IMG/VR virus record: IMGVR_UViG_3300006735_000319
Coordinates: 1 to 21,392 of that record
DNA length: 21,392 nucleotides
Source of the DNA: a virus
Direction: 5' to 3' (one strand)
Both the position numbers and the translations under genes were made by a program. The notes under the pieces are model-generated. The model was given only the letters and a program-made list of their open reading frames with translations. It ran no database searches and had not been told where the DNA came from. The stretch's first letter is position 1. The number at the start of each line of letters is the position of its first letter. Positions 1,673-15,652 of this stretch are shown here, one piece after another.

Positions 1673-1703
1673 TTGGCTACCCAGGAGACCTTTCGTATAT
1701 TTA
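1673..1703 (+). promoter_or_regulatory. Bacteroidota-type promoter (TTG-N20-TATATTTA)
   Basis: TTG at 1673-1675 lies exactly 20 bases before TATATTTA at 1696-1703. The Bacteroidota housekeeping consensus is TTG near -33 and TAnnTTTG near -7. It sits in the only clear intergenic gap after the membrane gene and 34 bases ahead of the ATG at 1738. The same spacing recurs at 4485, 6050 and 8280. Confidence 0.6.
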
Positions 1704-1716
1704 CAGGGTAAATAAG

Positions 1717-1740
1717 TAATTAATTAATATAAAGGTTATG
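1717..1740 (+). promoter_or_regulatory. Repeated leader, TTAATTAA...AAAGGTTATG type
   Basis: TAATTAATTAAT followed by ATAAAGGTT leads straight into the ATG at 1738. Near-identical leaders precede the genes at 2049, 3314 and 6120, and shorter forms precede 2241 and 6401. AAAGG could pair weakly with the 16S 3' end, but lies only two bases from ATG, unusually close for a Shine-Dalgarno site. Confidence 0.55.
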
Positions 1741-2031
1741 AGTAATTTTAAAAGATTTGATAGACATGAAGTGTTTGAAATGGAAGACACGTCATTCGTA
1801 TTAGATATTATTGGTAAAGTTGATAAGTATGACTATGAAGATGGTGGTGCCGAAGTTTCTAACATGTTATTTGGATTGTTTGATGGTTATTGGTATTCTG
1901 ATTTATACAGAATGTTAAACGATAACTTAAAAGTATCAACATACGATGTTGCTATAATGGATGAAGTGTTGAGTAAAATTTCTAAGGCAATTAACATGGA
2001 TCAAAGTGAAGAAAAAATTTATTTTAATTAA
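1738..2031 (+). CDS. Small acidic protein of unknown function
   Basis: The 97-residue product is not recognised. It is acidic and aromatic-rich, with an FGLFDGYWYSDLYRML stretch at about residues 46-61, and looks like a compact soluble alpha/beta protein. It is the first gene after a promoter-like site and a repeated leader, and heads a series of small genes with the same leader. That suggests an early or middle accessory gene made during host takeover. The function is unknown. Confidence 0.75.
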   Translation: MSNFKRFDRHEVFEMEDTSFVLDIIGKVDKYDYEDGGAEVSNMLFGLFDGYWYSDLYRMLNDNLKVSTYDVAIMDEVLSKISKAINMDQSEEKIYFN

Positions 2032-2051
2032 TTAATAAATAAAAGGTTATG
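2024..2051 (+). promoter_or_regulatory. Repeated leader before gene 2049
   Basis: TTAATTAATTAA followed by TAAATAAAAGGTTATG overlaps the end of the upstream gene (stop at 2029-2031). It is the second copy of the leader seen at 1717. Confidence 0.5.
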
Positions 2052-2234
2052 CAAATTAAAGATTTAAAAGTAGGTCAATTATTTCAAATGGAAGGATTAG
2101 ATATGGATGGTAATACTGTTCAAGCTGATTGTACGTTAAGAGCTTATAATGGAATGAATAAATACGTTGTGGAATCAGATGGTATTACTATATTATATGA
2201 TGGTGAAGATGTTATTACAAAAGTTTATAAATAA
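2049..2234 (+). CDS. Small beta-rich (SH3-like) protein of unknown function
   Basis: The 61-residue product is not recognised by name. Its alternating pattern (IKDLKVGQLFQME, then a short turn, then TLRAYNGMNKYVVES and a final strand) suggests a five-strand SH3-like or KOW-like barrel, as in many small phage proteins. It begins at the AAAGGTTATG leader, 17 bases after the previous stop. The fold is inferred from pattern alone. Confidence 0.75.
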   Translation: MQIKDLKVGQLFQMEGLDMDGNTVQADCTLRAYNGMNKYVVESDGITILYDGEDVITKVYK

Positions 2235-2243
2235 AAGGTTATG
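2231..2243 (+). promoter_or_regulatory. Short leader ATAAAAGGTTATG
   Basis: This short form of the leader lacks TTAATTAA and overlaps the preceding stop codon at 2232-2234. It leads directly into the ATG at 2241. Confidence 0.45.
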
Positions 2244-2459
2244 GCAATTAAAAAATTAAAAAATAGAAGTAGATTAGAAATTGATTTAACAGGGCCAGAT
2301 GGTAATGCATTTGCATTATTAGGTCGTGCTAAAGGTTTATGTGCCCAATTAGGCATTCCTTTTAAACCACTAAGTGATAAAATGACTAGTGGTGATTATG
2401 AAAATCTAGTTAAAGTATTCGATGATACGTTTGGAAATTTTGTTACATTATATAGATAA
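2241..2459 (+). CDS. Small conserved-looking phage protein, unknown function
   Basis: The protein has 72 residues. The N-terminal half carries LEIDLTGPDGNAFALLG followed by a helix RAKGLCAQLGI. From memory, this pattern is widespread in small proteins of marine T4-like phages, but no function is attached. The C-terminal half is helical and ends in FGNFVTLYR. It is preceded by the short leader, and the next gene starts 4 bases after its stop. This is a confident gene with unknown function. Confidence 0.8.
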   Translation: MAIKKLKNRSRLEIDLTGPDGNAFALLGRAKGLCAQLGIPFKPLSDKMTSGDYENLVKVFDDTFGNFVTLYR

Positions 2460-2463
2460 TATT

Positions 2464-2628
2464 ATGACTAAATGGATAGAATATAAAGGTAAAAGAAAAA
2501 AACTATTTGGTGAATCCGAAAGTGGTAATCCTATAGTTAAAATGAATGGTAATTTAGTTCAGATTCCCATTGAGTATACTAATTATGAACCAGAAGAATG
2601 GATAAGTAATTCACTTTATAGCAGCTAA
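2464..2628 (+). CDS. Small protein, unknown function
   Basis: The product has 54 residues from the ATG at 2464. An in-frame ATG at 2422 exists, but it would overlap the upstream gene by 38 bases and add a poor N-terminus, so 2464 is preferred. The sequence (MTKWIEYKGKRKKLFGES, then strands NPIVKMNG and LVQIPIEYTN) suggests a small basic beta-barrel-like protein. It is followed after 4 bases by the next gene. Function unknown. Confidence 0.65.
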   Translation: MTKWIEYKGKRKKLFGESESGNPIVKMNGNLVQIPIEYTNYEPEEWISNSLYSS

Positions 2629-2632
2629 TAAT

Positions 2633-2944
2633 ATGAATAAAACAACAGTAATATATCCAAATGAAGATTTAATCACATTTGATAATTTAAAAATTGAAAA
2701 TAATAGGGATGCAGGTCCAGATGCTAAAGAAGCAAAAGAAATATTTGATAATGGATATGGAGTTCTAATAGAACAAAATAGACGAACATTAGGTAACAGA
2801 AATAAGTTATGGCAAGTAACTTTAATAGATTCCGAATGGGAAGAGATAGTGGAGGATTCTAAAATATCAAAAGATGGTGTTTGGGAATATTGTGATGAGG
2901 ATGAAGTAAATGAAATATTAAAATTAATACAAACAGAGTTATAA
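2633..2944 (+). CDS. Acidic small protein, unknown function
   Basis: The 103-residue acidic product is not recognised. It has a helical centre (DAKEAKEIFDNGYGVLIEQN), a strand LWQVTLIDSEW and an acidic C-terminal helix. The stop overlaps the next start as TAATG, so it is probably translated together with the PC4-like gene. It may be a partner of that DNA-binding protein, but only position supports this. Confidence 0.75.
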   Translation: MNKTTVIYPNEDLITFDNLKIENNRDAGPDAKEAKEIFDNGYGVLIEQNRRTLGNRNKLWQVTLIDSEWEEIVEDSKISKDGVWEYCDEDEVNEILKLIQTEL

Positions 2945-3159
2945 TGGAACAAATTATTGAAATTAAAAAAAATAAAACTAACTATGTCCAAATTGAACTT
3001 AGAGAATATGAAGGGCATGAGTATGTTGACGTAAGAGAATTTTACGATAGTCAAGATGGTAAACGATTACCCACTAAAAAGGGTATTACGTTTTCTCCTA
3101 AGGTATTAGAAGAAGTAATTGATGGGTTGTCCATGTTGAAGGATCAAATGAATGGATAA
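2944..3159 (+). CDS. PC4/p15-like transcriptional coactivator, ssDNA-binding
   Basis: The 71-residue product matches the pattern of the PC4/p15 C-terminal domain. Basic strands at residues 3-20 (IIEIKKNKTNYVQIELREY) are followed by a DVREFY segment, then LPTKKGITFSP and a C-terminal amphipathic helix (VLEEVIDGLSMLK). In this family a dimer binds single-stranded or melted DNA through the curved sheet, and phage members have been linked to replication, recombination or transcription. Start and stop overlap both neighbours (TAATG at 2944; next ATG at 3152). Family assignment is fairly sure; the role here is inferred. Confidence 0.8.
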   Translation: MEQIIEIKKNKTNYVQIELREYEGHEYVDVREFYDSQDGKRLPTKKGITFSPKVLEEVIDGLSMLKDQMNG

Positions 3160-3298
3160 AATAAATGAAGTAGAAAAATGTGTGTCATGTGGCACAACTA
3201 CTCCTTATGTTATGAGACAATCAATTCATGAAAGGTTATATTATATAGAGGGAGCAGGACAATTATGTGAGGATTGTCATTATAAAATCTACGGTTAA
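3152..3298 (+). CDS. Zinc-finger-like microprotein (two CxxC pairs)
   Basis: The product has 48 residues. Two CxxC pairs, C10-C13 and C39-C42, separated by about 25 residues, fit a zinc ribbon or treble-clef type site (CVSCG ... LCEDCHYK). The start overlaps the PC4-like gene by 8 bases. Small zinc proteins of this kind often bind nucleic acid or host proteins, but nothing specific can be said. Codon use matches neighbours. Confidence 0.7.
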   Translation: MDKINEVEKCVSCGTTTPYVMRQSIHERLYYIEGAGQLCEDCHYKIYG

Positions 3299-3316
3299 TT
3301 AAAAATAAAGGTTATG
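3296..3316 (+). promoter_or_regulatory. Repeated leader before gene 3314
   Basis: TTAATTAAAAATAAAGGTT overlaps the preceding stop and leads into the ATG at 3314. It is another copy of the leader. Confidence 0.5.
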
Positions 3317-3445
3317 GAATGTGTAAAAGATGTTTTTGCGATAATGGGTTTATTTGCTACTTGTCTTGCTTTGTATCACTTCATTGGTGATCAAATTGCG
3401 ATATACAAGATAAACAAAAAGTGGAAAAATAAAGATAATGTTTAA
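3314..3445 (+). CDS. Membrane microprotein, one helix plus basic tail
   Basis: The 43-residue product has a hydrophobic helix at about residues 6-22 (VFAIMGLFATCLALYHF) and a basic tail rich in lysine (YKINKKWKNK). The positive tail suggests it faces the cytoplasm. It has the AAAGGTTATG leader and overlaps the next gene by 8 bases. No homologue is recognised. A role at the host membrane, such as superinfection control or lysis timing, is conceivable but unproven. Confidence 0.65.
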   Translation: MECVKDVFAIMGLFATCLALYHFIGDQIAIYKINKKWKNKDNV

Positions 3446-3581
3446 AACAATAATTCAAAATTGGCTAAAAGAAATAGTTAAATCTACTCCTAATGATCAA
3501 GAATTGGGTGCTAAAATAAGACATCTAGTTTACGAAACAGAATTAGAAAATAAAGCCAATAATAAATCCAGCGATGACTAA
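3438..3581 (+). CDS. Small hydrophilic protein, unknown function
   Basis: The 47-residue product is predicted helical (FKTIIQNWLKEIVKS, then GAKIRHLVYETELENKA) with a polar tail. It starts inside the previous gene (8-base overlap), and its codon use is like its neighbours. The function is unknown. Confidence 0.55.
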   Translation: MFKTIIQNWLKEIVKSTPNDQELGAKIRHLVYETELENKANNKSSDD

Positions 3582-3605
3582 TAAGACTCAGTTAAGAATT
3601 TTTTG

Positions 3606-3767
3606 ATGGATGTGTCACCTAGGAATACGGATATACAATTGAACACCGTCATTGTGGGTGATCTAAAAATGTACTTTAGTGCTCGTGGCAACAATAAACA
3701 CTACAATTTGGAATATTTTATTAACATGAAAACGGGGGAGAAAACCGATTACCATGAGAGTAAATGA
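3606..3767 (+). CDS. Small protein, unknown function
   Basis: The 53-residue product is likely beta-rich (IQLNTVIVGDLKMYFSA, YNLEYFINMKTGEKT). It starts 24 bases after the previous stop and overlaps the next ORF by 14 bases. From here on, codons use more G and C (acg, ggg, gtg) than in the leader-driven genes upstream. Function unknown. Confidence 0.55.
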   Translation: MDVSPRNTDIQLNTVIVGDLKMYFSARGNNKHYNLEYFINMKTGEKTDYHESK

Positions 3768-3855
3768 TAAATTGATTGGCGAGATTGCATTTGGGTTGTA
3801 CATGATTTTCTACATTTGGTGTGTGTATGAGCTGGTATTTGTATGCAAATGTTAA
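3754..3855 (+). CDS. Membrane microprotein, 33 residues
   Basis: A short basic/polar start (MRVNDKLIGE) is followed by one hydrophobic aromatic helix at residues 10-31 (IAFGLYMIFYIWCVYELVFV) and a CKC end. It overlaps the preceding ORF by 14 bases. The size makes chance possible, but the orderly hydrophobic helix and packed position favour a real gene. Confidence 0.45.
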   Translation: MRVNDKLIGEIAFGLYMIFYIWCVYELVFVCKC

Positions 3856-3911
3856 ACATAAACACGCTGGTATTCAATGCGTAACAGCGCTATAAAACGG
3901 TTATAATTGTA

Positions 3912-4001
3912 ATGATACCCAATCCACTATATGCGATAGTAAATGCTGTTAAACGCGTTACCCCTTATATTATATATGACAATAATGATATAGATAGATA
4001 A
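3912..4001 (+). CDS. Possible 29-residue microprotein
   Basis: The product begins MIPNPLYAIVNAVKRV and ends in an acidic NNDIDR tail. Its stop and the next start share one base (TAATG), as at true gene junctions in this phage. Very short, so support is mainly the junction and natural-looking composition. The 56 bases before it (3856-3911) hold nothing recognisable. Confidence 0.3.
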   Translation: MIPNPLYAIVNAVKRVTPYIIYDNNDIDR

Positions 4002-4111
4002 TGAGTTATGTATATTTGTATAGATATATTACCAAAGATAATGGTGCATTTGATAGATTGGGTGCGTGGTGTATGCTTATTTGCATGCAGGCAACCAAAT
4101 TTCTCATATGA
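4001..4111 (+). CDS. Possible 36-residue microprotein
   Basis: The ORF begins within the stop of the 29-residue ORF (TAATG). It contains a polar segment (YITKDNGAFDRLGAW) and a short hydrophobic end. A second ORF in another frame (4008-4157) overlaps nearly all of it, so at most one may be real. Confidence 0.3.
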   Translation: MSYVYLYRYITKDNGAFDRLGAWCMLICMQATKFLI

Positions 4112-4157
4112 CGAAGTATATATTTGCAGAATCAACAATCGTTACCGCATGAAATAA
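4008..4157 (+). CDS. Possible 49-residue protein overlapping gene 4001
   Basis: This alternative frame starts 7 bases after the 4001 start. It has a hydrophobic front and a polar end (SYDEVYICRINNRYRMK) that looks like a folded strand pair. It would leave only 29 bases before the next ORF. Which frame is used, or whether both are, cannot be settled from one sequence. Confidence 0.3.
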   Translation: MYICIDILPKIMVHLIDWVRGVCLFACRQPNFSYDEVYICRINNRYRMK

Positions 4158-4186
4158 AAAGTATTTGCAATTAAAGCGCGTTTAAA

Positions 4187-4303
4187 ATGAGAATAATACA
4201 AAAATTAAATAAAATTACAAATAAATTTGGGGCCCCGGGGTGGGGTTCTTATATTAGCATGTATAAAAAATTGGAAATATGGTCGAAACCGGTTTTAAAA
4301 TAG
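4187..4303 (+). CDS. 38-residue microprotein with GAPGWG core
   Basis: Basic N-terminal helix (MRIIQKLNKITNKF), then GAPGWGSYISMYKKLEIW and a basic end. The striking G/C run at 4229-4246 (GGGGCCCCGGGG within AT-rich DNA) is explained as codons for GAPGWG. It overlaps the next gene by 25 bases in another frame. No function is known. The conserved-looking aromatic/glycine core argues for a real protein. Confidence 0.5.
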   Translation: MRIIQKLNKITNKFGAPGWGSYISMYKKLEIWSKPVLK

Positions 4304-4428
4304 AGCTAACACACCCAGGTGTACATTGTTTATTGGGATTCCAGAAATGGGATGCTGATGGTGATGAACCGTATAATACATTTAAGATACATTTACTATG
4401 GATCACGTTAAGGTGGGATTGGGAGTAA
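4279..4428 (+). CDS. Small conserved-looking protein, unknown function
   Basis: The 49-residue product reads FKIELTHPGVHCLLGFQKW, then an acidic turn (DADGDEPYNTF), then strands KIHLLWITLRWDWE. The strand-turn-strand layout and the FQKWDADGDEPYNTF segment look like a compact phage protein seen in other marine phages, though I cannot name a family. It overlaps the 38-residue ORF upstream. It is the last gene before a promoter-like gap at 4429-4530. Confidence 0.6.
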   Translation: MVETGFKIELTHPGVHCLLGFQKWDADGDEPYNTFKIHLLWITLRWDWE

Positions 4429-4470
4429 CATATTTCCGCTTCACACTTCGATACTACCCGCTTGCCTTTA

Positions 4471-4493
4471 CTCGCCCAAGTGCTTTGGGCGGG
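4471..4493 (+). other. GC-rich hairpin (possible terminator or mRNA structure)
   Basis: CGCCCAA at 4473-4479 pairs perfectly with TTGGGCG at 4485-4491 around a 5-base loop; C-G and T-G pairs extend it to nine. No T-run follows, so it is not a standard intrinsic terminator. Its right arm also supplies the TTG of the promoter-like site at 4485, so hairpin and promoter overlap. Confidence 0.5.
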
Positions 4494-4515
4494 GGATGAT
4501 CCTAGTGTATATTTA
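4485..4515 (+). promoter_or_regulatory. Bacteroidota-type promoter (TTG-N20-TATATTTA)
   Basis: TTG at 4485-4487 is followed by exactly 20 bases and TATATTTA at 4508-4515, 15 bases before the ATG at 4531. It lies in one of the few true gaps (4429-4530), downstream of a hairpin stem. Confidence 0.6.
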
Positions 4516-4530
4516 CTATAAACTGTTAAT

Positions 4531-4755
4531 ATGGCAACACTTAGAGAAATATACGATGAATTAGAAAGAATACATGGCGATATCACAGACTATGTAGAAG
4601 AATGCGACAATGGCAACTTATCCAGCGATTTAACCATGAACGTGGAAAATCCCATGGAATCATTACTGGTTGCGCTAGAGACGTTAATTGACGACAAAGA
4701 TGCCGGAATTTACGATGATAGAGAAATTTATGAAAATCCTGAAGATTTTGATTGA
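4531..4755 (+). CDS. Small acidic helical protein, unknown function
   Basis: The 74-residue, strongly acidic product has a helical front (LREIYDELERIHGDITDYVEE), a second helix around MESLLVALETLIDDKD and an acidic tail (YDDREIYENPEDFD). Acidic small phage proteins can mimic DNA or bind host proteins, but no such evidence exists here. It has its own promoter-like site. The antisense ORFs over it are shadows. Confidence 0.7.
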   Translation: MATLREIYDELERIHGDITDYVEECDNGNLSSDLTMNVENPMESLLVALETLIDDKDAGIYDDREIYENPEDFD

Positions 4756-4936
4756 TAGCGGGCCGATCGCGGATTGTGATCGTACCGCTCCCACGATCGC
4801 CACGGTCCATCGATGGTGCGTGGATACCGCAAAAAAGGTTGATGGATTCATTCATCTTCTACGATTTTCCACATCGATTAGTATATACAAATATATTTTA
4901 TGCGAAAATTATGGCGGTATTGGGCAAGAGCCCTAG
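4730..4936 (+). CDS. Possible small ORF in GC-rich stretch
   Basis: A 68-codon frame from the ATG at 4730 covers the otherwise empty 4756-4899 stretch. It has a plausible segment (TIATVHRWCVDTAKKVDGF) but a less natural end, and overlaps both neighbours (26 and 37 bases). A competing plus-strand frame (4752-4973) is also open. DNA at about 4756-4830 is far richer in G and C than its surroundings. If neither frame is real, the stretch is non-coding with CGATCG-like palindromes, including CCATCGATGG. Confidence 0.3.
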   Translation: MKILKILIDSGPIADCDRTAPTIATVHRWCVDTAKKVDGFIHLLRFSTSISIYKYILCENYGGIGQEP

Positions 4937-5064
4937 GAGAAAAAATTGGAGAGACAGATGGGCGCGCAGATAACGTTGCCTTTATTAGAACTCTCATTAT
5001 ATTACAAGCAGTTATAACAAATGTTTTAATAGCATGGAATATAATTCGCAGATGGGATGAGTAG
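4900..5064 (+). CDS. Small membrane protein with amphipathic front, unknown function
   Basis: The 54-residue product has a basic aromatic N-terminal part (MRKLWRYWARALGEKIGE), a polar link (TDGRADNVAFIR) and a hydrophobic helix at residues 31-47 (TLIILQAVITNVLIAWN), ending in IIRRWDE. The LWRYWARALGEK...AD.VA.IRT layout is one I associate with small proteins of uncultured marine phages. No function is known. Its end overlaps the next ORF by 8 bases. Confidence 0.65.
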   Translation: MRKLWRYWARALGEKIGETDGRADNVAFIRTLIILQAVITNVLIAWNIIRRWDE

Positions 5065-5212
5065 AAAAATACCAGAATGGTCAAAATTAACATGGAATTG
5101 TGGATGTGGCGCACTAAATGCGGGATGGTTAGATAATTGTGGAAAATGTGGCAAAAGTAAAAAAGAAAACGAAAAAGAATACGCCAAAAATTATAATGTG
5201 TTCTCAGTGTAA
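5057..5212 (+). CDS. Zinc-ribbon-like microprotein
   Basis: The 51-residue product has cysteines at 15, 17, 28 and 31 (NCGCGALNAGWLDNCGKCGK), a likely four-cysteine zinc site in the style of a RanBP2 or zinc-ribbon knuckle. A lysine/glutamate-rich tail follows. It overlaps both neighbours (8 bases before, 17 after). A zinc-dependent fold is likely; the target is unknown. Confidence 0.6.
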   Translation: MSRKIPEWSKLTWNCGCGALNAGWLDNCGKCGKSKKENEKEYAKNYNVFSV

Positions 5213-5354
5213 TGAAGAATTTACAAATGGTTATGATTACCGCATGCATTGGGAAAAACATTATGATGATTATATAAAATACGGAATAGATTATGCCAGA
5301 AAGAAAGCAGAAAAAATTAAAGGATACCCCCTTACTAGATCAGGTTCAACTTGA
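5196..5354 (+). CDS. C2H2 zinc-finger-like small protein
   Basis: From the ATG at 5196 the product has 52 residues and starts MCSQCNEEFTNGYDYRMHWE. Cys-x2-Cys, 12 residues, His-x3-His fits a classic C2H2 finger. A basic helix follows (YARKKAEKIKG). An upstream in-frame ATG at 5139 would give 71 residues but would overlap the previous gene by 74 bases, so 5196 is preferred. C2H2 fingers are rare in bacterial viruses and mostly bind nucleic acid. Overlaps the next ORF by 62 bases. Confidence 0.55.
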   Translation: MCSQCNEEFTNGYDYRMHWEKHYDDYIKYGIDYARKKAEKIKGYPLTRSGST

Positions 5355-5463
5355 GCGTGAATTATGGAACGCGGCATTGCGAGTTCCTCCTCCTCACCGT
5401 AGTAAAAAGAAATATTCTCGCAAGGGCAAGGCCCGTTTTAGGGATTTTGACAAAGATTTATAG
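5293..5463 (+). CDS. Small basic protein, unknown function
   Basis: The 56-residue, lysine/arginine-rich product begins MPERKQKKLKDTPLLDQVQL. A proline-rich turn (RVPPPHRSKKKYSRKGK) precedes an RFRDFDKDL end. The charge suggests nucleic-acid or ribosome contact. It overlaps the zinc-finger gene by 62 bases in another frame, the longest overlap in the cluster, so one of the two ends may be less certain. The next 55 bases to 5518 hold no gene. Confidence 0.5.
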   Translation: MPERKQKKLKDTPLLDQVQLERELWNAALRVPPPHRSKKKYSRKGKARFRDFDKDL

Positions 5464-5518
5464 ATTCGCAACCTCTCCGTAAAAAAATTTTTCCATATCC
5501 GCAAGAGTATATATTTAT

Positions 5519-5794
5519 ATGCATATAATTGTAGATATGATAACATTCCTTTATAGCACCGCGCAATTTTTATTATTCTTCGGTATCTTCTATGCTATTT
5601 TGCATTATCTTAAACCAGATATCAAATTATTTGGGCAAGTGGTAATTGGCATAAATGTATTTGCTGTTTGGCTCTATATAGCAGGTATATTCAATCAGTC
5701 TATATTGTGGGCCGATGCATCACCTAAGATATTTCTACACGGGATTGTCGCCGTTATCATTTATACTATATTAAAATTGGAGAATGAGAAGTGA
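5519..5794 (+). CDS. Small membrane protein, three helices
   Basis: The 91-residue product has hydrophobic helices at about residues 8-28, 38-58 and 70-85, and a short charged end (KLENEK). The ATG at 5519 coincides with an ATATTTATA box, so the true start may be the ATG at 5537 (MITFLYSTAQF), which still keeps all helices. Size and topology would allow a holin-like role, but there is no lysozyme gene next to it, so the role is open. Its end overlaps a 27-codon ORF by 11 bases. Confidence 0.65.
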   Translation: MHIIVDMITFLYSTAQFLLFFGIFYAILHYLKPDIKLFGQVVIGINVFAVWLYIAGIFNQSILWADASPKIFLHGIVAVIIYTILKLENEK

Positions 5795-5867
5795 AGATTA
5801 CGTAATTTTATCGTTAGCTGGTTGTTGGTTGCTTTTTTGTTTAATATCTTGGATACAAAGTAAATGA
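5784..5867 (+). CDS. 27-residue membrane microprotein
   Basis: The product reads MRSEDYVILSLAGCWLLFCL followed by ISWIQSK: a short polar start, one hydrophobic helix (residues 7-23) and a basic end. It starts inside the previous gene (11-base overlap), and its TGA overlaps the next ATG (ATGA). Coupling at both ends makes a chance ORF less likely despite the size. Function unknown. Confidence 0.5.
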   Translation: MRSEDYVILSLAGCWLLFCLISWIQSK

Positions 5868-6037
5868 TTAAACGATTCTTATATAACTTAGCAATGAAAT
5901 CGCCAATCAGAAAATGGGCGTTATCATTAACGGGATGGAAATGGTTAGCGTGGCAATTAATAGCAGGCGGTATATTTTTTGTTATATTAGAGATTTTATT
6001 AAATCTCATAGGAATGACGATGATTCCTTGGAAGTAA
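5864..6037 (+). CDS. Small membrane protein with basic amphipathic front
   Basis: The 57-residue product has a basic, aromatic front (MIKRFLYNLAMKSPIRKWAL, then SLTGWKWLAWQLIA) and a hydrophobic helix at residues 30-50 (GGIFFVILEILLNLIG), ending MTMIPWK. It overlaps the preceding microprotein as ATGA. The longer ORF at 5914-6096 in another frame is a shadow. Together with 5519 and 5784 it forms a run of three membrane genes. No family is recognised. Confidence 0.6.
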   Translation: MIKRFLYNLAMKSPIRKWALSLTGWKWLAWQLIAGGIFFVILEILLNLIGMTMIPWK

Positions 6038-6049
6038 TGCACAGGAGGC

Positions 6050-6080
6050 TTGGAGTCCCAAGATATTGTTCGTATATTTA
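6050..6080 (+). promoter_or_regulatory. Bacteroidota-type promoter (TTG-N20-TATATTTA)
   Basis: TTG at 6050-6052, exactly 20 bases, then TATATTTA at 6073-6080. It lies 39 bases ahead of the ATG at 6120 and shares TTCGTATATTTA with the site at 1673. Both are followed by the same TTAATTAA/AAAGGTTATG leader. Confidence 0.6.
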
Positions 6081-6097
6081 TGGCATAAATAAATAAG

Positions 6098-6122
6098 TTA
6101 ATTAATTAAAATAAAGGTTATG
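6098..6122 (+). promoter_or_regulatory. Repeated leader before gene 6120
   Basis: TTAATTAATTAA and AAATAAAGGTT run into the ATG at 6120. Promoter and leader together match the arrangement at 1673-1740. Confidence 0.55.
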
Positions 6123-6395
6123 GAGTTAAAAAATTATTCAGATTTAAATTCATTTTTAAGAGATTGTAGTATTGAGGACTTAAAACATATAAAGTCCCGA
6201 GTTAATTTAATGATTGAAAGTAAAACTATAGATGCTAACGTAAATATAAAAGTTGGATCTTGGGTTAAAATAAATCACAGAAAATGTATTGGTAAAAAGT
6301 ATACTGTTGAGAAAATCAATAGAAAAACTTATATACTAAATGATGGTAAAGGTGCTAGAATTAAAGCATCATTAGGTTTAATTGAATCAATTTAA
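6120..6395 (+). CDS. Small KOW/SH3-like protein, unknown function
   Basis: The 91-residue product has a helical front (LNSFLRDCSIEDLKHIKSRV) and a C-terminal beta part at about residues 43-90. In the beta part, VGSWVKINHRKCIGKKYTVE followed by INRKTYILND resembles a KOW/SH3-like barrel. Such domains often bind RNA polymerase, ribosomes or RNA. Its promoter-leader unit suggests the same timing as the genes from 1738. The fold is inferred; the function is unknown. Confidence 0.75.
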   Translation: MELKNYSDLNSFLRDCSIEDLKHIKSRVNLMIESKTIDANVNIKVGSWVKINHRKCIGKKYTVEKINRKTYILNDGKGARIKASLGLIESI

Positions 6396-6403
6396 AGGTT
6401 ATG
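6391..6403 (+). promoter_or_regulatory. Short leader TTTAAAGGTTATG
   Basis: A short form of the leader overlaps the previous stop (6393-6395) and runs into the ATG at 6401. Confidence 0.45.
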
Positions 6404-6616
6404 AGATATATGAATCAAGATTATGTAGTACAAGAATTGTTGGGTATGATTAGTGCCCGACAAATAGAGGGGGAAACATTCCCCGAATTATCAAATGATA
6501 GAATTTTATCAATTGCGGATTCGTTTTTATTCGAATGGAATGAATTAGGAGATCCGGATGCTAACTTTGAATCAATGTTAGCGTGGACATTAGATCAAAA
6601 TTTAACACACGCTTAA
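6401..6616 (+). CDS. Small acidic helical protein, unknown function
   Basis: The 71-residue product is helical and acidic (YVVQELLGMISARQIEGETF, then a helix SIADSFLFEWNELGD and a helix FESMLAWTLDQNL). It is not recognised. It begins at the short leader, and the next gene follows after one base (TAATATG). It resembles small phage proteins that pack against a host protein, but nothing specific can be claimed. Confidence 0.75.
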   Translation: MRYMNQDYVVQELLGMISARQIEGETFPELSNDRILSIADSFLFEWNELGDPDANFESMLAWTLDQNLTHA

Positions 6617-6617
6617 T

Positions 6618-7022
6618 ATGGAAAAGTTAATAGTAGAATTTGATACCGGAAAGGTAACCACTTATAATGTGGTTATCTTCAGAACATATAAAAAAGGTGT
6701 TAAAGAAATTTTATTTACCGAGGTAAACAATTTCGTTAAAAGATCCGATGTGGTAGATTGGAAAAAAGTTACTCCTAGAAAAAAAAGAGGAGAAGGAGAT
6801 AGTATATCTTCTAAGTATATTGGTAATAATATTCATGAGAATATAGAAATGCCAATGTCTATAGCCCCCGAGATAGTAGAATTTGCTAAGGGTGATGGTA
6901 AAGGATTTACTAAACAAGTAGTAGATAAATGGAATAAGCATTTAGATTTTGATTTACATTCAAAATTTGAAAGATATGGTTTCACGGGTTCATCAAGACT
7001 AAACACAATATTTAAGATATGA
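6618..7022 (+). CDS. Protein of unknown function, 134 residues
   Basis: The front half (MEKLIVEFDTGKVTTYNVVIF, RTYKKGVKEILFTEV) is beta-rich. The middle is basic (TPRKKRGEGDS), and the C-terminal part is helical (IAPEIVEFAKGDGKGFTKQV, WNKHLDFDLHSKF). It is not recognised. Its stop overlaps the next start as ATGA, linking it to the lipoprotein gene. Confidence 0.75.
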   Translation: MEKLIVEFDTGKVTTYNVVIFRTYKKGVKEILFTEVNNFVKRSDVVDWKKVTPRKKRGEGDSISSKYIGNNIHENIEMPMSIAPEIVEFAKGDGKGFTKQVVDKWNKHLDFDLHSKFERYGFTGSSRLNTIFKI

Positions 7023-7591
7023 AAAAGAAAACAGGCGAATGGATATTATATTGGATGCTCGTAGCATTGACGTGTTTAGGTTTTGCTACAAGTTGTACTC
7101 CAGAACCCCTCTGGGTTGACCATTCCGAATTTTTAATAGATAATAATGAAAAATTTATTCCAAAGGCGTTCATCGTCAAAAACAAAAAATACCAAGAAGT
7201 ATATATTGACTCGCTCGAATCAGATACGTACTTCTTACTCTACGCCGAGGCAAATAAAATGCCCGAGCGCTACCGCTATAATGGCGAGTATAATATTTGG
7301 GCCTCCTTTTCTACTCCTAACCGCTATAACGATGGGACTAACACTAATTTTGTTGATAACGTTCCTTATGTTAGTTCTAACAGCGTTAGGTTTGATCGTC
7401 CTAGAGTCTTTAATGGTAAAGTACAAGGCTATCAACCAAAAGAATTGGATCTCTACACTAAACAAACTGTTGGACCAATACACCAAACAGCCGTAAAACG
7501 GCGCGACACTATATCAATATATATGGACGTGACATTTGACGATGAGTGGTTTGTTAGGGACACGTTATTCGTTGTTTTACGCCCAAAATAG
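7019..7591 (+). CDS. Phage-encoded lipoprotein
   Basis: The 190-residue product has a basic start (MKKKTGEW), a hydrophobic helix (ILYWMLVALTCLGF) and a lipobox-like ATSC with Cys26, followed by TPEP. The mature part is mostly beta strands (VYIDSLESDTYFLLYAE, RDTISIYMDVTFDDEWFV, DTLFVVLRPK) and should lie outside the inner membrane. Phage lipoproteins can block superinfection or alter receptors, but no family is recognised. Codon use is clearly richer in G and C (ctcgaatca, gcccgagcgc) than the gene just upstream, suggesting recent acquisition from a host. The frame at 7146-7496 is a shadow. Confidence 0.75.
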   Translation: MKKKTGEWILYWMLVALTCLGFATSCTPEPLWVDHSEFLIDNNEKFIPKAFIVKNKKYQEVYIDSLESDTYFLLYAEANKMPERYRYNGEYNIWASFSTPNRYNDGTNTNFVDNVPYVSSNSVRFDRPRVFNGKVQGYQPKELDLYTKQTVGPIHQTAVKRRDTISIYMDVTFDDEWFVRDTLFVVLRPK

Positions 7592-7677
7592 TATATATGT
7601 ATTATGGAATATACTCATTTTAGGTTAGCTCTTTAATAAGGAGTCTGGCTGAGTCAAATTAACAAAGTTTTAAAAAT

Positions 7678-7980
7678 ATGGATGCAAGAAATATATTAGA
7701 AGGTTATTTAAACCAAATGCAAGATGCTCACAAAGAATTTAGTGGAGCAAAAAATAGTTTAATGGAATTAGCTTTAGCTCCTTTTGAACCTTTATTTATT
7801 AAAGATACTGAAGGAATGAGAGTTGCTTCTCGTTTGAAAAAAAGTGATATTAAAAATTTATTAAATTCAATTGATAATGATTTATTACCTATGTTTGAAG
7901 AAAACAAATATAAAGAAGGAATAGATAAAATAAATGAATGGAAAAAGCTTCTTGAAGAAAATTTGGAGAAGCAAAAATAA
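7678..7980 (+). CDS. Small helical protein, unknown function
   Basis: The 100-residue, almost all-helical, acidic product has a YLNQMQDAHKEFSGAKNSLM helix, a second helix KKSDIKNLLNSIDNDL, and a lysine/glutamate-rich end (WKKLLEENLEKQK). It is not recognised. The 86-base gap before it (7592-7677) holds no clear promoter; it includes TAAGGAG at 7633-7639 and a direct repeat GAGTC. A 6-base stem (7987-7992 with 8000-8005) follows the gene. Confidence 0.75.
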   Translation: MDARNILEGYLNQMQDAHKEFSGAKNSLMELALAPFEPLFIKDTEGMRVASRLKKSDIKNLLNSIDNDLLPMFEENKYKEGIDKINEWKKLLEENLEKQK

Positions 7981-7986
7981 ATTGGT

Positions 7987-8005
7987 ACCTTCTAAATACG
8001 AAGGT
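7987..8005 (+). other. Small hairpin after gene 7678
   Basis: ACCTTC pairs with GAAGGT around a 7-base loop. A T-poor stretch follows, so it is a weak candidate for a terminator or processing site between gene 7678 and the glutaredoxin gene. Confidence 0.3.
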
Positions 8006-8016
8006 TTGAAAAATTG

Positions 8017-8025
8017 ATATTTATA
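8017..8025 (+). promoter_or_regulatory. Possible late promoter box ATATTTATA
   Basis: ATATTTATA lies 20 bases before the glutaredoxin ATG, in a true gap. The same box lies in the gap before gene 10256. T4-like phages use an AT-rich -10-only box with gp55, usually TATAAATA; this variant is a guess. Confidence 0.3.
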
Positions 8026-8045
8026 AAATGGGGGTTTAAGAGAAA

Positions 8046-8363
8046 ATGAGAAAAAAAGGGGTAGGGGAAATAACGTTGTATACGATTGACGATTGTAAAT
8101 TCTGTCAAGCCACAAAAGGTGCACTCTCTCACCTCAGAATCCCATTTAAAAATATTGATGTTGAAGAAAACGAACACATGGGCGACTATCTTGAGCGCCA
8201 TCTTAAAACCGAGTTTTATCCCATCATATTTTTTAGAAAATCAGAAGAAGAATATGTTTATATACTTTCAGAGACAAACTTGGAGGAACTAAATCACATT
8301 CGTATATTTAATACAATAGAGGAAGCCATTGAAATTCTTCTAAAATATTATTATGAATTATAA
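8046..8363 (+). CDS. Glutaredoxin
   Basis: The 105-residue product has a thioredoxin fold: strand ITLYTIDDC, active site CKFC (Cys17, Cys20), helix QATKGALSHL, strand PFKNIDVE, then EFYPIIFF with the cis-proline (Pro59). It would use glutathione or a similar thiol to reduce ribonucleotide reductase and other host or phage disulfides, as T4 NrdC does. Its length is normal for the family, with an extra C-terminal helical segment (ETNLEELNHI...AIEILLKYYYEL). No reductase gene is in the window. A promoter-like site for the next gene lies within its 3' end. Confidence 0.9.
   Translation: MRKKGVGEITLYTIDDCKFCQATKGALSHLRIPFKNIDVEENEHMGDYLERHLKTEFYPIIFFRKSEEEYVYILSETNLEELNHIRIFNTIEEAIEILLKYYYEL
8280..8310 (+). 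promoter_or_regulatory. Bacteroidota-type promoter inside glutaredoxin gene
   Basis: TTG at 8280-8282, 20 bases, TATATTTA at 8303-8310, with TTCGTATATTTA as at 1673 and 6050. It lies within coding sequence, 63 bases ahead of the HD-domain gene, so chance is more possible here. Confidence 0.45.
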
Positions 8364-8373
8364 AATATAATTA

Positions 8374-9129
8374 ATGGTTTTAACAGCGGAGCAAATTAAG
8401 GAGAACTATGAAGTTCTTATTAGGGGTATAGAAAAATACGTAACGGGTGATAGACAGCAGAAATTTCTAGACTTTTATAATAGTTTAGATGATCGTATTG
8501 CCCTACTCCCTGCTTCACACAAAAAAGCTTATCATAATTGTTTTCCCGGTGGTTATGTTGAACACGTAGTTCGTGTTATTACGGCCGCATTTAAGCTAAA
8601 TGATGTTTGGTCGGAAATGGGAATGGCAGATACTTTTACTGAGGAGGAGTTATTTGTCTCCGCTTTAAACCATGATTTAGGAAAAATAGGCTCACTTGAA
8701 GAGGTTTCTGTTTTTCCATCTACAGATGAATGGAGAAAGAAAAATTTAGGAGAAATGTATACTTTTAATACAAAAAATGAATACATGACAGTCCCAGACC
8801 GTTCATTATTTTTACTTCAACAAGCAGGTATTCAATTAACAACCAATGAATTCATTGCTATTAAAACACATGATGGTTTATATGATGAGGCAAATAGTCC
8901 TTATTTAAAAGGGTTTATGCCTGAAACTAAACCGCGTACTTCACTCCCTTATGTTTTACACCAAGCTGACCTCATGGCAGCAAGAATAGAATTTGAAAAA
9001 GAATGGATAGGTAAATTTGATAATAAAAAACCTAAACAAAAAGTTTCAAAACAAGATCGAGTTAATACTAACTTAGATAAAATAGGTTCTGGAAAAGATA
9101 ATTTAATGAATTTAGTAAAGAATCTCTAA
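8374..9129 (+). CDS. HD-domain metal-dependent phosphohydrolase
   Basis: The 251-residue product carries the HD signature: His64 (GGYVEHVVRV), His100-Asp101 (ALNHDLGKIG), His166-Asp167 (IKTHDGLYDE) and Asp199 (LHQADLMAAR). These would hold one or two metal ions and hydrolyse a phosphate ester, typically a nucleotide or cyclic nucleotide. HD enzymes are common in marine T4-like phages and are often suspected of nucleotide pool or signal-molecule control, but the substrate is not known. It overlaps the next start (TAATG). Confidence 0.9.
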   Translation: MVLTAEQIKENYEVLIRGIEKYVTGDRQQKFLDFYNSLDDRIALLPASHKKAYHNCFPGGYVEHVVRVITAAFKLNDVWSEMGMADTFTEEELFVSALNHDLGKIGSLEEVSVFPSTDEWRKKNLGEMYTFNTKNEYMTVPDRSLFLLQQAGIQLTTNEFIAIKTHDGLYDEANSPYLKGFMPETKPRTSLPYVLHQADLMAARIEFEKEWIGKFDNKKPKQKVSKQDRVNTNLDKIGSGKDNLMNLVKNL

Positions 9130-9413
9130 TGGATGCAACTACTATCGTATTAGTCAATGTTGGTGTTTTTAGTATTGGGGTTATTTCTTACATTATTTGG
9201 AATCTAATGAGAAAAAATGAAAGATTAGAGGACGAAATAGTAAAAAGGGATAATTATATAGAAAATATTACTACAATAATGTCAGAATCGGATCGAAAAA
9301 TTAAGGAAATCGATTCAAAACAAACATTCCAATCAGACGATGAAATAGGTTGGTTCTTTTCAGGAATCAAGGAGATTCAAGAACTTATAAACGAGTATAA
9401 TATAAACAAATGA
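9129..9413 (+). CDS. Membrane-anchored coiled-coil protein
   Basis: The 94-residue product has an N-terminal hydrophobic helix (residues 5-24, IVLVNVGVFSIGVISYIIW), then a long charged helix likely to form a coiled coil (LMRKNERLEDEIVKRDNYIE) and a helical end (FFSGIKEIQELINEYN). Most of it would face the cytoplasm if the basic RK after the helix follows the positive-inside rule. It resembles spanin-like or division-type anchors only in layout. The stop overlaps the next start (ATGA). Confidence 0.75.
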   Translation: MDATTIVLVNVGVFSIGVISYIIWNLMRKNERLEDEIVKRDNYIENITTIMSESDRKIKEIDSKQTFQSDDEIGWFFSGIKEIQELINEYNINK

Positions 9414-10216
9414 ATCCACCTATTGATGAGAACTTGCAGGGGAACATTCTAACTCCACCTAAAAGGGATGAAGGTCCAATGTACACTAAAAAAGGTACAT
9501 TAAGAAAAAGAAGACCTAAAACAAAAAACCAATACTTTACAGCCGATACTGAAGAGGCTATTATAGAGTATTTAAATACTACTGACGAGAAAAAACGTAA
9601 TCAAATATATAATGAACGTATTTGGTATGGTTTTCATAAATTAACTGAAAACATAATCCATACTTTTAAATTTTATTATACCGAAGTTGATACCATAGCC
9701 GAGTTACAACATGAAGTAACTACTTTTTTACTAGAAAAGTTACACTTATATAAACAAGAAAAAGGTAAGGCATTTTCCTATTTTGGTACTATTGCAAAAC
9801 GTTATTTAATACTTTATAATAATAATAATTATAAAAAATTAAAACAAAGAGCGGAAGTAGATGCTGTAGATAAAGATCAATCTATAACTATTGATTTAGT
9901 TAATAACCAATCCATAGATAAACCTAAGGATGAAGCTACAGAATTTATAGAGTATTTAATAAAATATTTTGATTTACATCTGTTTGATCATTTTCCAAAA
10001 CATGAGGATGCTAGAACAGCAGATGCTATTTTATCTTTATTTAGAAGAAGAGAACATATAGAATTGTTTAATAAAAAAGCTATTTACATTTACATTCGTG
10101 AGATGACTGATCAAAGTACTCCACAAATTACTAAAGTATTAAAACGAATGAAGAAAATATATAAAAAATTGATGGCTCAATATATTGAACATGGTACTGT
10201 TAGTATGAAATTCTAA
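9410..10216 (+). CDS. 55: Late-transcription sigma factor (gp55-like)
   Basis: The 268-residue product resembles T4 gp55, a truncated sigma-70 relative that with gp33 and the sliding clamp directs host RNA polymerase to late promoters. The core at residues 85-147 has a sigma region 2-like pattern: YTEVDTIAELQHEVTTFLLE, then GKAFSYFGTIAKRYLI and a basic N/K-rich stretch. The N-terminus is basic and flexible (TLRKRRPKTKNQYFT). The C-terminus (EMTDQSTPQITKVLKRMKKI) looks like a short helix-turn segment. It is longer than T4 gp55 (185 residues). It stands just before the structural block, consistent with controlling it. Confidence 0.85.
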   Translation: MNPPIDENLQGNILTPPKRDEGPMYTKKGTLRKRRPKTKNQYFTADTEEAIIEYLNTTDEKKRNQIYNERIWYGFHKLTENIIHTFKFYYTEVDTIAELQHEVTTFLLEKLHLYKQEKGKAFSYFGTIAKRYLILYNNNNYKKLKQRAEVDAVDKDQSITIDLVNNQSIDKPKDEATEFIEYLIKYFDLHLFDHFPKHEDARTADAILSLFRRREHIELFNKKAIYIYIREMTDQSTPQITKVLKRMKKIYKKLMAQYIEHGTVSMKF

Positions 10217-10231
10217 TTCTTTAGTACATCT

Positions 10232-10240
10232 ATATTTATA
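10232..10240 (+). promoter_or_regulatory. Possible late promoter box ATATTTATA
   Basis: ATATTTATA lies in the gap after the sigma gene and 15 bases before the first structural-block gene. The same nine bases occur at 8017. This is suggested by position and repetition only. Confidence 0.35.
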
Positions 10241-10255
10241 TCCAAAGCATAGACT

Positions 10256-15624: not shown

Positions 15625-15652
15625 AAAATACATTAAATAAATATTTATAATC

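Follow-up and report, generated by a model that had tools for sequence, protein, structure and literature searches.

The question raised by this locus is whether a TTG placed exactly 20 bases before the word TATATTTA marks promoters and, if so, which RNA polymerase reads them and in which host. The stretch of viral DNA analyzed here (21,392 nucleotides, hereafter the window) contains a carbamoyltransferase gene, many small genes, genes for an HD-domain protein and a sigma-like protein, and T4-like baseplate genes. Jointly with the whole explanation developed below, it is probable that the window comes from an immutovirus-type, T4-like myophage. The nearest cultured relatives are Flavobacterium phage immuto (Immutovirus) and Mel-JY01. 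Immuto shares with the window both motifs described below and the order HD gene, small gene, sigma gene and baseplate genes, at a protein identity of ~42%; neither promoters nor this sigma factor are named in the annotation deposited for it. The carbamoyltransferase gene is Nol-like (positions 1-1323; PHROG 1601, 4e-127) and is truncated at the window start.

On the + strand of the window, TTG-N20-TATATTTA occurs four times, with the TTG starting at 1673, 4485, 6050, and 8280, and on the - strand it does not occur. At the other spacings searched on both strands (TTG-Nx-TATATTTA, x = 14-19 and 21-26), the pair was absent. The four sites named in the first-pass annotation were thus all recovered, at the sole spacing present, although its coordinates hold for the TTG and not for the box, which lies 23 bases further on. 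As it had also described, three of the four sites share a longer sequence, which reads TTCGTATATTTA. The sole error in that description concerns the placement in gaps, in that the 8280 site lies within the glutaredoxin open reading frame with no intergenic gap. TTGG, rather than just TTG, is present in all four sites, and the final base of the box is invariably A. In 1000 dinucleotide shuffles of the window, the count of the N20 pair was at most two, so that four pairs were never obtained, and the maximum at any spacing from 15 to 25 was at most three. The 4485 site has a counterpart in L006, L017, L030, and L034.

Putative transcription signals and associated genes in the window
Feature	Position	Strand	Remarks
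Putative early-class promoter, TTGG-N15-TTCG-TATATTTA	1673..1703	+	34 nt upstream of ATG 1738
Putative early-class promoter, TAGTG-TATATTTA variant	4485..4515	+	15 nt upstream of ATG 4531
Putative late-class box TATATTTATAT, core TATTTATA at 5512	5510..5520	+	no TTG at N20; abuts ATG 5519
Putative early-class promoter	6050..6080	+	39 nt upstream of ATG 6120
Putative late-class box ATATTTATA	8017..8025	+	5' of glutaredoxin ORF
Glutaredoxin ORF, host of the 8280 promoter	8046..8363	+	Pfam Glutaredoxin, 1.2e-9
Putative early-class promoter inside glutaredoxin CDS	8280..8310	+	63 nt upstream of HD-domain gene ATG 8374
HD-domain phosphohydrolase-like gene	8374..9129	+	PHROG 28876, 6e-15; equivalent position in immuto; first gene past the 8280 promoter
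Divergent phage sigma factor, candidate late sigma	9410..10216	+	sigma-70 region 2 and C-terminal helical domain
Putative late-class box TATATTTATAT, core TATTTATA 10233-10240	10231..10241	+	no TTG at N20; shortly upstream of ATG 10256
Putative late-class box ATATTTATA	15641..15649	+	12 nt upstream of ATG 15653

The check suggested by the first-pass annotation in related genomes was run on the complete genome of immuto and on 80 IMG/VR contigs that carry relatives of the sigma-like gene (58-100% identity), and the spaced pair recurs in both with a bias to the + strand. In immuto, TTG-N20-TATATTTA is found 23 times on the + strand and never on the - strand, and adjacent spacings yield 0-2 sites. 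When TATCTTTA is added as a permitted box, the counts become 33 and 1, and 31 of these 33 + strand sites lie in noncoding DNA, which makes up 5.3% of the genome. In many of them, the box starts exactly 36 nt upstream of an ATG. A TTG accompanies 22 of the 27 noncoding TATATTTA boxes of immuto and one of the 13 coding ones. The sites are mostly located at 60.9-76.2 kb, immediately upstream of the counterparts of the HD and sigma genes. The immuto promoters differ from those of the window in that they continue into GGTATCAATAATTAAAAC. About 15 of the early promoters of immuto (L086, 67.6-74 kb) precede unrelated small genes and have in common an extended cassette, TATATTTAGGTATCAATAATTAAAAC, an arrangement that looks like the copying of promoter and leader as one unit.

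The window and its 80 relatives together hold 69 unique copies on the + strand and one on the - strand; all 69 begin with TTGG, and the box is mostly preceded by TTCG. Across all of IMG/VR, the full early motif was searched with 15, 16, and 17 N after TTGG (TTG spacings of 20, 21, and 22, respectively), and was found in at least 120 contigs at N20, in 58 at N21, and in 17 at N22. The contigs picked by the N21 form contain 55 additional N20 sites. Judged from these sequence patterns, the four sites in the window are very probably promoters.

At the 8280 site, the glutaredoxin codons under the motif are nearly frozen among 33 unique relatives: TTG is used for leucine in 31 of 31 cases, CGT in 33 of 33, ATA in 33 of 33, and TTT in 29 of 33, whereas adjacent Leu, Ile, and Thr codons of the glutaredoxin gene vary synonymously in the same relatives. 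In ten larger genes of the window, TTG makes up 4% of the Leu codons and CGT 11% of the Arg codons. The freezing of the codons at the motif points to selection on the DNA, and thus to a promoter for the operon of the HD gene, the gene following 9129, and the sigma gene. In more distant relatives, the motif is located in the gap directly upstream of the HD gene. The 8280 site would be an example of a promoter conserved within an unrelated coding sequence.

Two further TATATTTA boxes, at 5510 and 10231, lack a TTG at N20, as had been pointed out, and the spacing does separate two groups. Both read TATATTTATA. Nearly all close relatives keep the 10231 box as YATATTTATATCCAAA, and in immuto its counterpart lies at 78884; the 5510 box, whose leader is very short, is retained in L005 and L006. 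The 8017 box has counterparts in L005, L011, L024, L025, and others, and ATAAATATTTATAATCATG matches the 15641 box in ~10 relatives. In an unbiased word count, TATTTATA ranked first among the 8-letter words in noncoding DNA upstream of the late genes of immuto (14 of 29 upstream regions vs 0.4 expected). With immuto genes assigned as early or late by gene content and position, expression being no part of the split, the TTG class is found in 20 of 32 early and 2 of 29 late upstream regions (Fisher p 5e-6), and TATTTATA in 2 of 32 early and 15 of 29 late ones, which belong to structural genes (Fisher p 1e-4). The counts of ATATTTATA on the + and - strands are 16 and 1 in immuto and 208 and 36 in the relatives. 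By these sequence criteria, the boxes lacking a TTG probably represent a second class of promoters, the late class. A T4-like TATAAATA was also tried as the late box, and it showed no excess on the + strand of immuto (15 on + and 30 on -).

Alternative explanations for the two classes were weighed. The four spaced pairs in the window could be a coincidence of chance or of coding sequence, as might be suspected from TATATTTA alone, which occurs 8 times in the window vs 8.8 expected, and from the location of the 8280 site within a gene; however, the shuffles, the relatives, immuto, and the frozen codons all contradict such a coincidence, which the counts in immuto and the relatives suffice to refute, and we regard it as exceedingly improbable. 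For the boxes lacking a TTG, it could be argued that promoters are confined to the TTG class and that TATTTATA reflects AT-rich translation start regions favored by Bacteroidota ribosomes. Translation in Bacteroidota is tuned by the sequence and structure of the start region and not by Shine-Dalgarno pairing (PMC6847099), and several boxes start only 8-12 nt upstream of an ATG. In particular, the boxes at 5510 and 15641 are so near to their ATG that they could be start regions instead. For the class as a whole, we consider this improbable, since the exact word TATTTATA far exceeds the expectation from base composition, is missing from most early upstream regions that are comparably AT-rich, and occurs in many immuto copies at 20-40 nt upstream, and the boxes are strand-biased.

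The candidate for the protein that reads the putative late promoters is encoded immediately before the first of them. The window protein itself gave no significant Pfam or PHROG match and no match to a solved structure, and an assignment from this protein alone was rejected; homologues were therefore needed. A homologue with ~45% identity (L426) passed the Pfam Sigma70_r2 threshold (2.4e-5, 24.5 bits vs a cut-off of 24), and another (L083) matched a PHROG sigma family (3.7e-4). L426 and L427 belong to a contig in a Flavobacteriales genome, in which the HD gene, a gene for 97 amino acids, the sigma gene, and the late box follow each other in the same order as in the window. The predicted structure of the window protein was of modest quality (pLDDT 70, pTM 0.43), and its Foldseek matches were weak and often sigma factors; the single strong viral match (E 1.6e-4) carries no name in the tables used. 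A profile match to T4 gp55 was weak (E 0.06), and L426 scored no better than E 0.011 with phrog_234, the PHROG of gp55. The window protein has 268 amino acids vs 185 in gp55, has an additional C-terminal domain, and can barely be aligned with it, and the likeness of the sequences is suggestive only.

Taken together, we favor as the probable explanation a T4-like cascade of two classes, in which host-type early promoters are followed by a phage sigma factor and TATTTATA late promoters. The motifs, spacing, strand bias, conservation, synteny, and early/late split of immuto were computed here; that both classes are promoters, with host sigma A reading the early ones and the phage sigma the late ones, we infer. 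The two classes would have the letters TATATTTA in common. The early class, TTGG-N15-TTCG-TATATTTA, would be a rigid -33/-7 pair resembling promoters of the Bacteroidota primary sigma factor and would drive small early genes, and the 8280 promoter would drive the operon of the HD gene, the gene following 9129, and the sigma gene. Host RNA polymerase carrying the product of 9410-10216 would then probably read the late class, like gp55 in T4. This class would consist of TATTTATA with AT-rich DNA downstream and no upstream element, would serve the structural genes from 10231 onward, and would have its first promoter just past the sigma gene. T4 late promoters have an 8-bp box and AT-rich downstream DNA and lack a -35 element (PMC2988020). 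The system proposed here resembles T4 in all three respects, and also in the position of the boxes 5' of structural genes and in the phage-encoded sigma, but the box is TATTTATA instead of TATAAATA, with 6 of 8 letters in common.

The first-pass annotation held that the unmodified host polymerase reads the TTG sites. In Flavobacterium, the -33 element is weak and the -7 element reads TAHHTTTG, in which the final G hardly ever varies (PMC6847099); F. psychrophilum promoters belong to the same family (PMC9723704). Compared with promoters of the Bacteroidota primary sigma factor (sigma ABfr; -33 TTTG and -7 TAnnTTTG), the early class has a similar upstream TTG, TA--TTT box, spacer of ~20, and leader of 20-35 nt, and its leaders of ~24-30 nt are in keeping with those of F. 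johnsoniae and F. psychrophilum (PMC6847099, PMC9723704). It differs in the final A, in a box nearly fixed as TATATTTA or TATCTTTA, in the strict TTG(G), and in a spacer that is almost always 20 in this lineage. At the TTG-N20-TAnnTTTN sites of immuto, the final base of the box is A in 34 of 38. To determine the host spacing, upstream regions were used, since coding background swamped the signal in whole genomic loci. In 987 flavobacterial upstream regions, TAHHTTTG was found 339 times in sense and 187 times in antisense orientation, whereas TAHHTTTA was unbiased (286 vs 280). TTG was best at N18-21 in these regions, and therefore the N20 of the phage is within the host range. The exact phage pair is not in excess in 61 Flavobacteriaceae genomes (667 TTG-N20-TATATTTA vs 641 in the reversed control). 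Given the final A in place of the nearly invariant G, and no excess of the pair in the host genomes, reading by the unmodified polymerase is unproven.

Alternatively, the TTG sites could be promoters for a polymerase modified by the phage sigma or by an early phage factor, so that TATATTTA is preferred to TAnnTTTG as the -7 element and a strict TTGG at 20 bases is required. The A that almost all sites carry where the G of the host hardly varies (PMC6847099), a TTG far stricter than the weak -33 element of the host, and the counts in the 61 genomes would all be accommodated by such a change, and the C-terminal helical domain of the sigma-like protein model could contact the upstream element. 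Nevertheless, we consider it rather unlikely. An early-class site precedes the sigma operon itself in both the window and immuto, and therefore the sigma factor is not required for all early sites; in addition, the distantly related Mel-JY01 keeps the spacing with a canonical TAnnTTTG, and the geometry and spacer are within the host range. A broader idea, which we regard as tentative, is that a widespread marine flavophage lineage rewired both halves of T4-like transcription for Bacteroidota, changing the early -7 element and pairing TATTTATA late promoters with a divergent sigma. The early promoter would then compete with host promoters, possibly via a polymerase-modifying factor, and the divergent sigma would have its own early promoter written within the glutaredoxin gene.

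A host phylum had been assigned from promoter grammar alone. A bacteroidote host is indeed probable, but the assignment needs the cultured relative and the missing Shine-Dalgarno motifs as well; with these several lines, a host in the Bacteroidota is well supported, and the promoter alone is insufficient. The links to a particular host are indirect: the nearest relatives infect Flavobacterium, and one related contig is in a Flavobacteriales genome. None of the 27 starts in the window has a Shine-Dalgarno motif (control 4), and in immuto 11 of 232 starts do (control 28), as expected for Bacteroidota. Microcystis elabens is the labelled host of Mel-JY01 (PP395634.1, L089-L092). The + strand of this phage carries 24 TTG-N20-TAnnTTTG sites, a Bacteroidota-type promoter, and the - strand 4, yet Shine-Dalgarno-like motifs are present at 24 of 54 starts (control 1); the host label is worth checking.

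No mapped promoters for flavobacterial phages, including immuto, were found in the literature searched. For a phage group that is widespread, as judged by the IMG/VR contigs with the fullest early motif, the two classes offer an early/late grammar that can be tested, and they bring out a candidate late sigma factor from among hypothetical genes. Immuto and Flavobacterium sp. LMO8 are a cultured phage-host pair suited to testing it, and the early motif may aid the grouping of contigs from the immuto-like lineage.

Two minor observations concern the small genes. The 91-aa open reading frame after the 6050 promoter (6120-6395) gave a sub-threshold Pfam match to an H-NS N-terminal domain (3.9e-4). 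At the starts 1738, 2049, 2241, 6120, and 6401, AAAGGTT (or AAAAGGTT) abuts the ATG in several small genes, and it is possibly a translation or leader signal that replaces the Shine-Dalgarno motif.
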